In this document: positions 13,065 through 27,112 of the stretch, piece by piece
How positions within the stretch are numbered: position 1 is the stretch's first letter
Layout of the letters: each line of letters starts with the position of its first letter
Assembly (NCBI RefSeq): GCF_001679925.1
Contig: NZ_LYUZ01000093.1
Coordinates: forward strand, 10,486-46,553
DNA length: 36,068 nucleotides
Source: Leisingera sp. JC1
Lineage (GTDB): Bacteria; Pseudomonadota; Alphaproteobacteria; Rhodobacterales; Rhodobacteraceae
Reading direction: 5' to 3'
Program-made: the position numbers and the translations under genes
The notes under the pieces: model-generated
Database searches by the model: none
What the model was told of the DNA's origin: nothing
The model's input: the letters and a program-made list of their open reading frames with translations, nothing else

Positions 13065-13533
13065 GCCCTGCAGGCTATGTCGGCAATGGGAATGCATTGG
13101 CGGCCGCCAAGGCCCCTGCCCTGCCGGTTGCGCATCCTGCCGTCTGTCTCTCTGTGTCCGTTCCGCCGCTGGCCGTCCGTTAATGGGTGGCGGCGCCGCC
13201 GGGGTGGAGATGGGATGGGGATGACCCCATGCGAAAACGCATTTCACGCGCTCCGGGTGCCAGACCGGAGCCCAGTTCCAGGTGCCGGGGGTGTCAGGCC
13301 CGGCGGGTGATCATGACCGGGGATGATTTTGACTTAGACGGGTTAAAACCCCGTAGGCGGTGCGTACGGTGGGTACGCAACGGGTGTTTTGCTTTTCGCC
13401 GCCCGGCTCAAGTCGCGGCGATCCCGGAGGGCGGCGCCCGGCCCGGCGGGGTGGGAAGCGAAGCGCCCGCCCCTTGGGGGCGGGACGGGCGCTGCCCGGC
13501 CTAACGGCCGGGCGCGGCGCTGAACCTGAAAAT
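13065..13533. other. Non-coding stretch with palindromes upstream of rplO
   Basis: No convincing gene. It holds a 7-bp hairpin TGCGTAC/GTACGCA at 13361-13379. At 13460-13520 is a palindromic block (copy C of the repeat at 3524) with CCCGCCCC/GGGGCGGG and a perfect 8-bp stem GCCCGGCC/GGCCGGGC at 13494-13513. The plus-strand open frames here are GC-driven and lack family features. Confidence 0.5.
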
Positions 13534-13618
13534 CAAAAACGCCCCCGCCTGGATGGCAGGGGCGTATTTGGGCCGGGCGTTCGGAGAGGGAGGAGGATCC
13601 GTCAGCCGGCCAGAGAGA
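13534..13618 (-). ncRNA. Probable CcsR/cuckoo-type small RNA downstream of the first DUF1127 gene
   Basis: Directly after the DUF1127 stop codon, the minus strand folds into a stem GGCCGG/CCGGCC (13606-13611 with 13571-13576). Its loop contains exactly CCTCCTCCC (13596-13588). A second hairpin follows, ACGCCCC/GGGGCGT (13565-13559 with 13545-13539), then TTTTT: an intrinsic terminator. Length is about 80 nt. This is the plan of the alphaproteobacterial 'cuckoo' RNAs, including CcsR1-4 of Rhodobacter sphaeroides: two hairpins, an anti-Shine-Dalgarno CCUCCUCCC loop, and a DUF1127 gene just upstream. Such RNAs are processed from the 3' UTR of the DUF1127 message. Confidence 0.8.
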
Positions 13619-13834
13619 TCACTTGCCGTAGACGTGCTCGCGGGCGGCGCCGGGGATGGCGCAGCGGCTGAGACCGATGTCGGCCAGGTCGCGGGCCGAA
13701 AGCGCGCGCAGGGCGTGCACAGTCTGGCGGTATTCGCGGCGCAGCTGCCAGTTCCGGTAGAGGCCGGAGGCTACGCTCAGGAAACGGGTGAAAAGACCGG
13801 CGGAGACCGGTGCGGAAAGAGTTGAATAAGCCAT
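13619..13834 (-). CDS. DUF1127 family small protein, copy 1
   Basis: 71 residues starting MAYSTLSAPVSAGLFTRFLS. The C-terminal half has the family signature: Arg-rich YRQTVHALRALSARDLADIG followed by LSRCAIPGAAREHVYGK. In Rhodobacter sphaeroides the DUF1127 protein CcaF1 binds RNA and affects maturation of the small RNAs encoded behind it, and the same arrangement is present here. The longer frame to 14248 is not credible; GAAGGAA precedes the ATG at 13834. It has its own promoter candidate (13910-13938) and a small RNA with terminator. A second, diverged copy follows at 14100. Confidence 0.85.
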   Translation of the reverse strand: MAYSTLSAPVSAGLFTRFLSVASGLYRNWQLRREYRQTVHALRALSARDLADIGLSRCAIPGAAREHVYGK

Positions 13835-13909
13835 TGTTCTTGTTCCTTCGCTGCGCTGCCGGAGCGTGCCTCCGGCGCGTCGCTTGATCTGTTCGTCTGA
13901 AGTGACAGG

Positions 13910-13938
13910 GAGATAAGGTTGGCCCGGCAAGCCCGCAA
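13910..13938 (-). promoter_or_regulatory. Candidate promoter of DUF1127 copy 1
   Basis: Minus strand: TTGCGG, 17 bp, TATCTC, then two bases and TGTCAC. The copy 2 promoter shows the same -10, the same spacing and the same TGTCAC. The shared form suggests both genes answer to the same sigma factor. RpoH-type stress control is known for the ccaF1-ccsR operon of R. sphaeroides but is only inferred here. Confidence 0.5.
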
Positions 13939-14012
13939 CGGCTGCTTTGGTCTGGCGGCTATGCGGCGCACGCATAGCACAAATGCGTGAGATATCTTGA
14001 AGTCCCTCAATA

Positions 14013-14099
14013 GAAAACGCCCCCGCCCTGGAAGGGCAGAGGCGCTTTGGCCCGGGCATGAAGAGGAGGAGGAGAGGAGCGCCCGGGAAAAGGGAATTC
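14013..14099 (-). ncRNA. Probable CcsR/cuckoo-type small RNA downstream of the second DUF1127 gene
   Basis: After the second DUF1127 stop, the minus strand has a perfect 7-bp stem CCCGGGC/GCCCGGG (14087-14081 with 14057-14051). Its 23-nt loop contains CTCCTCTCCTCCTCCTC. A second, imperfect hairpin (about 14045-14018) ends in GTTTTC, an intrinsic terminator. Length is about 85 nt. Architecture matches the copy at 13534-13618, but the stem bases differ completely while the C/U-rich loop is kept: compensatory change that supports a functional RNA. Confidence 0.8.
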
Positions 14100-14312
14100 T
14101 TAGCCGTAGACGTGCTGGCGCGCGATGTCGGCGATATCGCTGCGGCGGACGCCGATGTCGGACAGCTCGTGATCGGACAGCGCGTCCAGCTCGTTGTAAG
14201 TGCGCTGGAATTCGCGGGCTTTGGTCCAGGAGTCCACCAGGCCCTCAACAGTTGCGCGGATGCGGGCGGTCAGGCTGTGGCCGGTGTGTGCAGCGGAAAT
14301 AACATGTGCCAT
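14100..14312 (-). CDS. DUF1127 family small protein, copy 2
   Basis: 70 residues starting MAHVISAAHTGHSLTARIRA. The family signature is FQRTYNELDALSDHELSDIG followed by VRRSDIADIARQHVYG. It shares the ending HVYG and the LSxxxLxDIGxxRxxI pattern with copy 1 but differs through the N-terminal half, so the duplication is old. By analogy to CcaF1 it may be a small RNA-binding protein acting on its own 3' UTR RNA; not shown for this protein. Its promoter candidate is at 14383-14411. Confidence 0.88.
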   Translation of the reverse strand: MAHVISAAHTGHSLTARIRATVEGLVDSWTKAREFQRTYNELDALSDHELSDIGVRRSDIADIARQHVYG

Positions 14313-14382
14313 CGTTCAGGTCCTTGTCTCTGATGCCGGGCCTATTCCCGGCGGTCCGTGTTTGGTCGTTTGCTGTGACACC

Positions 14383-14411
14383 GAGATAGGACCGGGGGAT
14401 GAGTCGAACAA
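14383..14411 (-). promoter_or_regulatory. Candidate promoter of DUF1127 copy 2
   Basis: Minus strand: TTGTTC, 17 bp, TATCTC, two bases, TGTCAC. It matches the copy 1 promoter in spacing, -10 and the downstream TGTCAC. Confidence 0.5.
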
Positions 14412-14504
14412 CTGACGGAACGGACTGCCCGCTATGCACGCGCTGCAAGGGGATTGCTGCCGGGTTAACCGCCCCTGCAGCCACTAGAGTGCGCTCGGAA
14501 AGCG

Positions 14505-14535
14505 AAAAACGCCCCCGGCGGACCGGAGGCGTTTT
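14505..14535 (-). terminator. Terminator after rpmD
   Basis: Perfect stem AAAACGCC/GGCGTTTT (14506-14513 with 14528-14535) with inner CCGG pairing, flanked by A/T on both sides so it could work in either direction. It lies 26 bp after rpmD and closes the rpmC-rpmD block. Confidence 0.85.
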
Positions 14536-14560
14536 CCAAAGTCAGTGCTCGAAAAGGGGC

Positions 14561-26755: not shown

Positions 26756-27112
26756 GCTTTCTGTCTTCCGTTTAGCGTGCCAGGCCTTAGGTTCTTGTCT
26801 TTGGCCCAGCTATGTTGAAGGCCCCCGTAGGTGCCTGAGTTATAGGGCCCCGAAGGTCCCCGAGTTCGTGTGTCCTGACAAACATAACGACCCCGGAAAC
26901 GAATCCGGGGCCTTCAGGATGGATGGCGTTTAGCAGAGTCGCCGGAAGGTGGCAATGACAGACTTCCGGCTTTTCGCGGTTTGGCCGCAGTGCGGCCTGG
27001 GACCTGTGCCAGCCAATGTAACTGCTATGCCTGTCCGGTACCACAGCACAACGCGGCCCTGCACCGCCGCCGCCCGGTGCCAAGCAGCCGCGAAGCCTGC
27101 CAGCCCCCTTGC
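26756..27112. other. Gap upstream of rplB with hairpins and direct repeat
   Basis: 357 bp, no believable gene. It should hold the rplB promoter: a good -10-like TATAAC is on the minus strand near 26842 but has no clear -35. An imperfect direct repeat (GCCCCCGTAGGTGCCTGAGTT and GCCCCGAAGGTCCCCGAGTT) lies at about 26820-26868. A hairpin CCCCGGA/TCCGGGG is at 26891-26910. Another, GCCGGAAG/CTTCCGGC at 26941-26970, is followed by TTTT on the plus strand, as a plus-strand terminator would be, although no plus-strand gene precedes it. Confidence 0.45.

Follow-up and report, generated by a model that had tools for sequence, protein, structure and literature searches.

What are the two hairpins that follow, one each, a pair of small DUF1127 genes lodged between the ribosomal protein genes rpmD and rplO of Leisingera sp. 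JC1, and does their place in a cluster that makes the ribosome tell us anything about their role? The original prediction saw here two small RNAs of the cuckoo/CcsR kind, with loops complementary to Shine-Dalgarno (SD) sequences, and read a link to growth or stress into the location. The locus is real and conserved, and it is a known kind of locus in a new form and a new place.

All its features lie on the minus strand of the window (the whole stretch of DNA analysed, 36,068 nt), in the order rpsE, rpmD, terminator, DUF1127 gene A, hairpin and terminator A, DUF1127 gene B, hairpin and terminator B, rplO and secY, rpsE and secY being identified from the translations of their open reading frames; rpsE has its best match, at 99%, in Leisingera sp. 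ANG59. The two genes were correctly placed between rpmD (L30; 14561-14749; PF00327, 66.3 bits) and rplO (L15; 12469-12939; PF00828, 61.4 bits), though rpmD is followed by an intrinsic terminator (14505-14536; fold of -23.3 kcal/mol, z -4.16), which sets the DUF1127 genes apart from the spc operon. Gene A (14100-14312, 70 aa) and gene B (13619-13834, 71 aa) match PF06568 with 49.7 and 47.6 bits (cut-off 23.3). By sequence and fold, gene A is followed by an anti-SD hairpin (14051-14087) with the stem CCCGGGC(G) and CCTCCTCC in its loop, then by an intrinsic terminator (14014-14048), and gene B by an anti-SD hairpin (13571-13611) with the outer stem GGCCGG/CCGGCC, then by its own terminator (13534-13570). 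The folds have z-scores of -3.87 for unit A and -4.65 for unit B, and none of 200 shuffles folds as well in either case. The predicted plan of gene, C/U-loop hairpin and terminator holds for both units. Between terminator B and the region upstream of rplO (13400-13520), GC-rich palindromic stretches can be seen by eye.

The loop of hairpin A reads ..CTCCTCTCCTCCTCCTCTTC.. (also given as CCUCCUCCUC and CCTCCTCCTC) and that of hairpin B ..CCTCCTCCCTC... The exact nonamer CCTCCTCCC is present in loop B (13588-13596) and absent from loop A, which also lacks the 9-mer CTCCTCCCT. The claim that the loops agree while the stems differ is right for the loop core, which is constant in 19 congener regions and in the units of the rpmD-rplO gap while the stems vary yet stay paired, but it does not extend to an exact nonamer common to both.

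The check on conservation in relatives came out in favour of the original prediction. A tandem DUF1127 pair was found in 20 of the 21 genus genomes, our own included, among the matches listed; we fetched the 19 other pairs and, from the one genome that had no tandem pair among those matches, a single DUF1127 region. Nineteen of these 20 congener regions keep the two genes in their place between rpmD and rplO, each with its loop core and with CTCCTCC 3' of it, and in the 20th region no query gene matched. Beyond the genus, we examined 80 rpsE loci of the wider Rhodobacterales (L010-L089), and since five of the 19 congener regions appear identical to loci L010, L011, L012, L013 and L014, the two sets overlap. 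One of these, L012 (JAHVJD010000009.1), is titled Nocardioides marinus, yet its ribosomal and DUF1127 genes are Leisingera-like, and it seems to be either mislabelled or a mixed genome. In the gap, 21 of 32 DUF1127 genes, those of the window among them, have CTCCTCC no more than 60 nt 3' of their stop codon; of 1696 control ORFs, which are all open frames of at least 120 aa, real or not, 1 has it. This count, like that of the operator below, omits six other DUF1127 genes of the host genome. Counted by locus, the motif follows at least one gap DUF1127 gene in 14 of the 21 Rhodobacterales rpsE loci with DUF1127 in the gap and none in the other 7, so DUF1127 protein and hairpin separate in evolution. 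In one locus (L017:8262-8270) the terminator hairpin itself has CCTCCTCCC, and terminator and anti-SD hairpin look merged.

The pairing itself shows covariation. Hairpin and terminator together contain 12 double-change cells in unit A (shuffled 3.7 +/- 1.5) and 6 in unit B (shuffled 1.0 +/- 0.9), of which the anti-SD stem holds 4 of 12 in A, in one pair, and 4 of 6 in B, in three pairs, the rest falling in the terminator. In unit A, pairs showing a double change are no more numerous than in shuffled alignments (217/500). Sliding the alignment of unit B by one column also gives 6 double-change cells, but with 56% of cells paired as against 95%. When 5' and 3' arms were exchanged among 22 units, 10 paired best with their own partner; window units A and B ranked 8 and 4, neither being its own best partner, because orthologous stems are alike. 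A DUF1127 tree built on few columns places the B proteins in a well supported clade (100/99) and leaves most A rows without a resolved placement. Taken as a whole, we regard it as nearly certain that the 3' hairpin is functional.

How do these units stand to the anti-SD RNAs already described? Cuckoo, CcsR and ar14 RNAs carry two to four adjacent motif hairpins in each RNA; the units of the window, and those of the 19 congener regions that keep both genes, have one motif hairpin and a terminator. RS0680a is described with two motif hairpins and SmelA075 and SmelA099 with three and four (PMC3927594), and three or four CCUCCUCCC hairpins are given for SmelA075, SmelA099 and NfeR1 (PMC3927594, PMC10746234). 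With these last three, Sinorhizobium members of the cuckoo/ar14 group (RF02344), the window units share variable stems and, in part, loops of the CCUCCUCCC type (the exact nonamer in loop B, CCUCCUCCUC in loop A), and they differ in having one hairpin each instead of three or four in one RNA. The CcaF1-CcsR1-4 operon of Rhodobacter sphaeroides is likewise built of a 71-aa DUF1127 protein, anti-SD RNAs directly 3' and a terminator at the end; there, four RNAs follow one gene behind a promoter reported to depend on RpoHI/RpoHII (PMC10253847), and RNase E is reported to take part in releasing CcsR1-4 from the 3' UTR of ccaF1 (PMC8625941, PMC10253847), whereas in the window, at the boundary of rpmD and rplO, two genes have one hairpin apiece and a putative LysR-type operator. 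The arrangement of DUF1127 gene and CcsR-like RNA goes under the name CIN1 (PMC10253847, citing the cuckoo paper), and, as in such a locus, the hairpin of each window unit has a short DUF1127 gene immediately 5' of it and in the same orientation, with PF06568 in both.

The covariance models gave a different answer. The check proposed with the original prediction yielded no Rfam match at gathering score on the site, an outcome that the prediction had named as counting against it, the window's one gathering match lying elsewhere, and a scan by E-value listed only matches far below the gathering scores; with RF02344 (ar14), the window units were not listed at E <= 10 among the 150 of 308 first-look candidates scored. 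RF02344 does list another host locus, on contig C13, at 40.1 and 36 bits, below its gathering score of 58.8; this array has four CTCCTCCTCCCT hairpins 3' of a DUF1127 gene (L090-L093, G000 C13:36260-36415), and it is the host's canonical CcsR/ar14-like locus, a closer relative of ar14 than the window units. As judged from their sequence, the latter are a variant of the known CcaF1-CcsR/cuckoo/ar14 kind, in single-hairpin form; we say variant because the family plan is followed but the hairpin number and a match to the covariance model are missing. The prediction of cuckoo/CcsR RNAs thus stands for the plan of DUF1127 gene, anti-SD hairpin and terminator, and is not supported for membership of the family itself. 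In the open-access literature searched, which does not include the original cuckoo, CcsR and CcaF1 papers (these may say more), there is no report of DUF1127/anti-SD RNAs between rpmD and rplO, nor of their being tied to LsrB in roseobacters, and the main text of a small-RNA paper on R. pomeroyi (PMC4809877) is without mention of rpmD or rplO.

Across the host genome, CTCCTCCCT has 34 matches against 8 for the reversed pattern; this excess is inflated by SD copies on the opposite strand, and we rejected it as evidence. Within 28 of the 30 loci drawn from the 34 matches, clear hairpins with the motif in the loop are those of the C13 array and of window unit B, the copy on contig C86 being only partly in the loop. 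In all, the host has seven motif copies 3' of four DUF1127 genes, that of C86 included.

The most interesting part of the locus may lie upstream of the genes. Most gap DUF1127 genes are preceded by a nearly ungapped block that begins with an inverted repeat; some 22 nt further on comes TTG, and then a -10-like CCTTATCT or CCTATCT. In the window, block A (14373-14450; model R1, 58.9 bits) has an inverted repeat with the exact TGCA-N6-GCAT, a -35-like TTGTT and the -10-like CCTATCT, and block B (13900-13977; 50.1 bits) has the inverted repeat TATGCG-N5-CGCATA, which fits only the relaxed TGC-N7-GCAT, a -35-like TTG and the -10-like CCTTATCTC; both blocks are training rows of the model. The exact operator occurs in 16 of 32 gap DUF1127 upstreams against 2 of 1653 control upstreams, the relaxed form in 25 of 32 against 5 of 1653. 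With the predicted start set 7 nt after the -10-like box, the operator lies at about -71 to -58. In S. meliloti, LsrB is reported, from gel shift and reporters, to activate the anti-SD RNA NfeR1 at TGCA-N6-GCAT, -72 to -57 (PMC10746234), that is, at the same box and a position matching the one predicted here. An operator apparently shared with a rhizobial anti-SD RNA is, we think, new here.

Alignment A4 and the sequence model R1 built on it use 28 of 38 upstreams, so that their figures hold for the selected rows. In the host genome all four R1 hits at E <= 0.001 precede DUF1127 genes (three training rows and one outside the training), six weaker hits are not before DUF1127 genes, and the model misses four of the eight host DUF1127 genes over the Pfam cut-off, among them that of C86 with its downstream motif. 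Among 120 other genomes of the order, 36 have a match at E <= 0.001, and 84 of the 121 genomes in the order search have none. Taking one locus per genome, a DUF1127 domain lies within 320 nt in 26 of 29, although some of these loci seem to come from species already present among the training rows; a DUF1127 ORF at a contig end (L218) is a probable 27th, and L223 and L231 have the match with no DUF1127 nearby.

Which regulator might read this operator? VtlR is reported to activate three DUF1127 genes in Brucella (PMC12595884), and its box in Brucella and Agrobacterium is given as GCAT-N3-TG-N3-T (PMC7486931). This box occurs in 6 of 38 upstreams, overlapping the inverted repeat in 5 of the 6, window unit B included, and it is absent from the upstream of window unit A. 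The vtlR gene is described as lying beside trxB (PMC7486931); by a motif pattern that can miss some, a LysR gene stands beside trxB in 9 of 30 loci, and one of these proteins matches structure 9HH1, the LsrB of A. tumefaciens. The best host match to that protein reaches 298.1 bits with 50% identity, the next host LysR protein 132.4 bits, and all 13 Leisingera genomes searched contain a best match of this kind. Conversely, the best solved match of the host protein is 9HH1 (247.4 bits; next 100.7). Synteny of trxB and vtlR, which we also considered, is absent in the host: its trxB stands next to an Lrp-type gene, and the same motif pattern shows no LysR gene in the stretch examined, unlike vtlR. 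From the matches we suggest that the host encodes a single outlying LsrB relative, a candidate regulator; against it stand the missing synteny and the statement that LsrB appears unique to Rhizobiales (PMC11975290). The LsrB/VtlR regulons of Rhizobiales (NfeR1 and the AbcR RNAs, the three Brucella DUF1127 genes) resemble our case in having DUF1127 genes and small RNAs as targets, and the host has both a LysR protein closest to LsrB and the LysR-type box of the NfeR1 site; they differ in that the host regulator gene is not beside trxB and that the VtlR box is found in those few upstreams only. Weighing these points, we lean slightly towards LsrB-type control of the DUF1127 units.

Between promoter and start codon lies a further hairpin of 5-8 bp, whose core ends 14-26 nt before the ATG. 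In unit A it is GCCGGG-AATAGG-CCCGGC (14332-14355), adjoining the ribosome-binding site on its 5' side, and in unit B GCCGGAG-GCACG-CTCCGGC (13856-13878), found by stem search and alignment. Leader alignment A6 comprises 29 of 32 rows, three gap genes being left out, and its figures hold for the selected rows: 83.3% of cells are paired (shuffled 68.8), with 36 double-change cells (shuffled 15.6) and a score of 0.551 against 0.310. Since the best stem was picked per leader, pairing is favoured in these figures, and two measures are less striking: 11 of 500 shuffles equal the alignment in pairs that carry a double change, and 50 of 500 in pair types. Slid by one column, the alignment falls to 64% pairing or less. 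A stem score of at least 15 is reached by 81% of all 32 leaders and by 22% of 1679 control ORF leaders, and the loop class, which was written after seeing the loops, is found in 25 of 32 against 6 of 1679; leader alignments and stem and loop counts, too, omit the six other host DUF1127 genes. On the 29 order loci the model R2 gave 18 hits at E <= 2, 10 of them at the expected leader place, some in species related to training rows; run on the whole genome it did not single the sites out (best E 0.125), and Rfam has no gathering match at the leader hairpins. A literature search for a conserved DUF1127 leader hairpin listed a single DUF1127 paper, on attenuation in S. meliloti, where the leader works via an upstream ORF. 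We propose that a covarying leader hairpin common to gap DUF1127 genes is new here, and is a candidate new RNA element. Whether DUF1127 proteins bind RNA or protein is debated (PMC12501420), and that they bind this hairpin is, in our opinion, doubtful. Predicted duplexes between the anti-SD loops and the leaders of the same units came to -10 to -15 kcal/mol, an uncontrolled value, and we do not claim such pairing.

The anatomy, conservation, covariation, promoter block and LsrB relative can be read from the sequence, and the reading that we prefer, and think probable, is that each DUF1127 gene would be a transcription unit of its own, with a LysR-type operator, an LsrB/VtlR-type switch and a 3' hairpin acting as a small RNA of the CcsR/cuckoo type. 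Each unit would run from LysR-type operator and promoter through leader hairpin, DUF1127 ORF and one C/U-loop hairpin to the terminator. An LsrB/VtlR-type LysR regulator would bind TGCA-N6-GCAT and most likely activate transcription there, as for NfeR1 in Sinorhizobium, turning the two small units on under stress. The presumed mRNA would yield an arginine-rich DUF1127 protein and end in the anti-SD hairpin which, together with the terminator (about 80 nt), may act in the mRNA tail or after processing by RNase E. Its exposed CCUCCUCC loop would pair with G-rich SD regions and so lower the translation or stability of chosen target mRNAs, and the DUF1127 protein, whose relative CcaF1 binds RNA, might help to process or deliver the hairpin RNA. 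Such anti-SD pairing in trans seems to us likely. As a more tentative extension, which we hold as possible but less likely than not, an ancient circuit of Alphaproteobacteria would have brought DUF1127 proteins and anti-SD RNAs together with a redox LysR regulator of the LsrB type; roseobacters would have packed it into single transcripts (operator, a leader hairpin with loop AAUNSG or GCACG bound by DUF1127 protein for autoregulation, ORF and 3' anti-SD hairpin) and copied it into the rpmD-rplO boundary.

A cis-acting element deserves the most attention among the other explanations. The C/U-loop hairpin would then serve the tail of the DUF1127 mRNA, as a site for DUF1127 protein or RNase or as protection of the end, with no separate small RNA acting in trans. 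The hairpin lies within tens of nucleotides of the stop codon and is directly joined to the terminator, one hairpin per gene leaves little room for a mature RNA, and CcaF1 is reported (PMC10253847, PMC12501420) to bind RNA and to contribute to the processing by which its own transcript matures. The loop, however, is a clean anti-SD sequence whose core is kept while the stems change, where the site of a protein that reads the stem would hold the stem, and the related RNAs already described with such a loop have other mRNAs as their targets (PMC10746234, PMC8307010); we consider this explanation rather unlikely. Still less probable, in our view, is that many CCUCC loops compete with 16S rRNA for SD sequences and so act as a general damper that ties DUF1127 expression to ribosome availability. 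Such competition would agree with the loops, which we take to match the anti-SD core of 16S rRNA, and with the number of motif copies after host DUF1127 genes. It would also agree with reports that S. meliloti DUF1127 genes are over-represented among the genes most strongly induced by tetracycline and that one of them is attenuated in response to translation (PMC12218461). The published relatives act instead on particular mRNAs, as CcsR does on flhR (PMC8307010).

Two further explanations bear directly on the place and density of the motif. Chance C/U-rich stretches in a GC-rich genome might be suggested by the six copies of CCTCCTCC in the window (1.69 expected), and we rejected this count as evidence because four of the six lie outside the two hairpins; the position and conservation of the motif exclude chance, which the counts of 21 of 32 genes against 1 of 1696 controls, the genus-wide conservation and the covariation already refute. 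The other explanation is that the place in the ribosomal cluster couples the RNAs to ribosome synthesis, from which the original prediction drew its growth or stress link. The location is indeed kept in nearly all the congener regions, and DUF1127 genes, in the gap of 21 of 80 loci, are the most frequent recurring ORF family there (two of the 80, with less than 150 bp of gap, were skipped in this survey). In 68 of 79 loci, however, a terminator-like hairpin lies 3' of rpmD; promoter block and terminator are separate for each DUF1127 gene, and unrelated genes share the gap; we therefore abandon the inference from location and hold such coupling to be highly improbable. The distance from rpmD to rplO ranges from 117 to 5374 bp, with a median of 1477 over the 65 loci whose stretch includes rplO (15 others do not reach it), and the five other spc junctions checked are all below 200 bp. 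Because of the terminator-like hairpins, the simplest reading of the rpmD-rplO site is an insertion-tolerant operon boundary, which does not point to shared regulation with the ribosome genes. Other recurring gap ORF families include one on the opposite strand in 6 loci, presumably, from its motifs, a DEAD-box helicase.

The variability of this gap was noted in 2012, with 0.1-1.5 kb, and 1.8 kb in R. pomeroyi (Ruegeria), where two gap genes are described as co-transcribed, with no RT-PCR product joining them to rpmD or rplO (PMC3305630), a result that also speaks against a ribosome link. These genes, SPO_PG027 and SPO_PG009, likewise add protein genes to this gap that belong to neither ribosomal operon; they differ in that the main text does not name DUF1127 and that SPO_PG027 has 207 aa.

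If our preferred reading of LysR-controlled units with anti-SD hairpins is right, marine roseobacters would have a stress-RNA system whose candidate switch can be named and whose parts can be tested, and the recurring pairing of DUF1127 genes with anti-SD RNAs would be explained in part by one type of regulator from rhizobia to roseobacters. The leader hairpin would then offer a defined RNA, possibly a natural ligand of DUF1127 proteins. The one gathering match of Rfam in the window (26758-26836, minus strand) is the ribosomal protein leader L2-Alphaproteobacteria, at 62.1 bits, an ordinary element of its kind.
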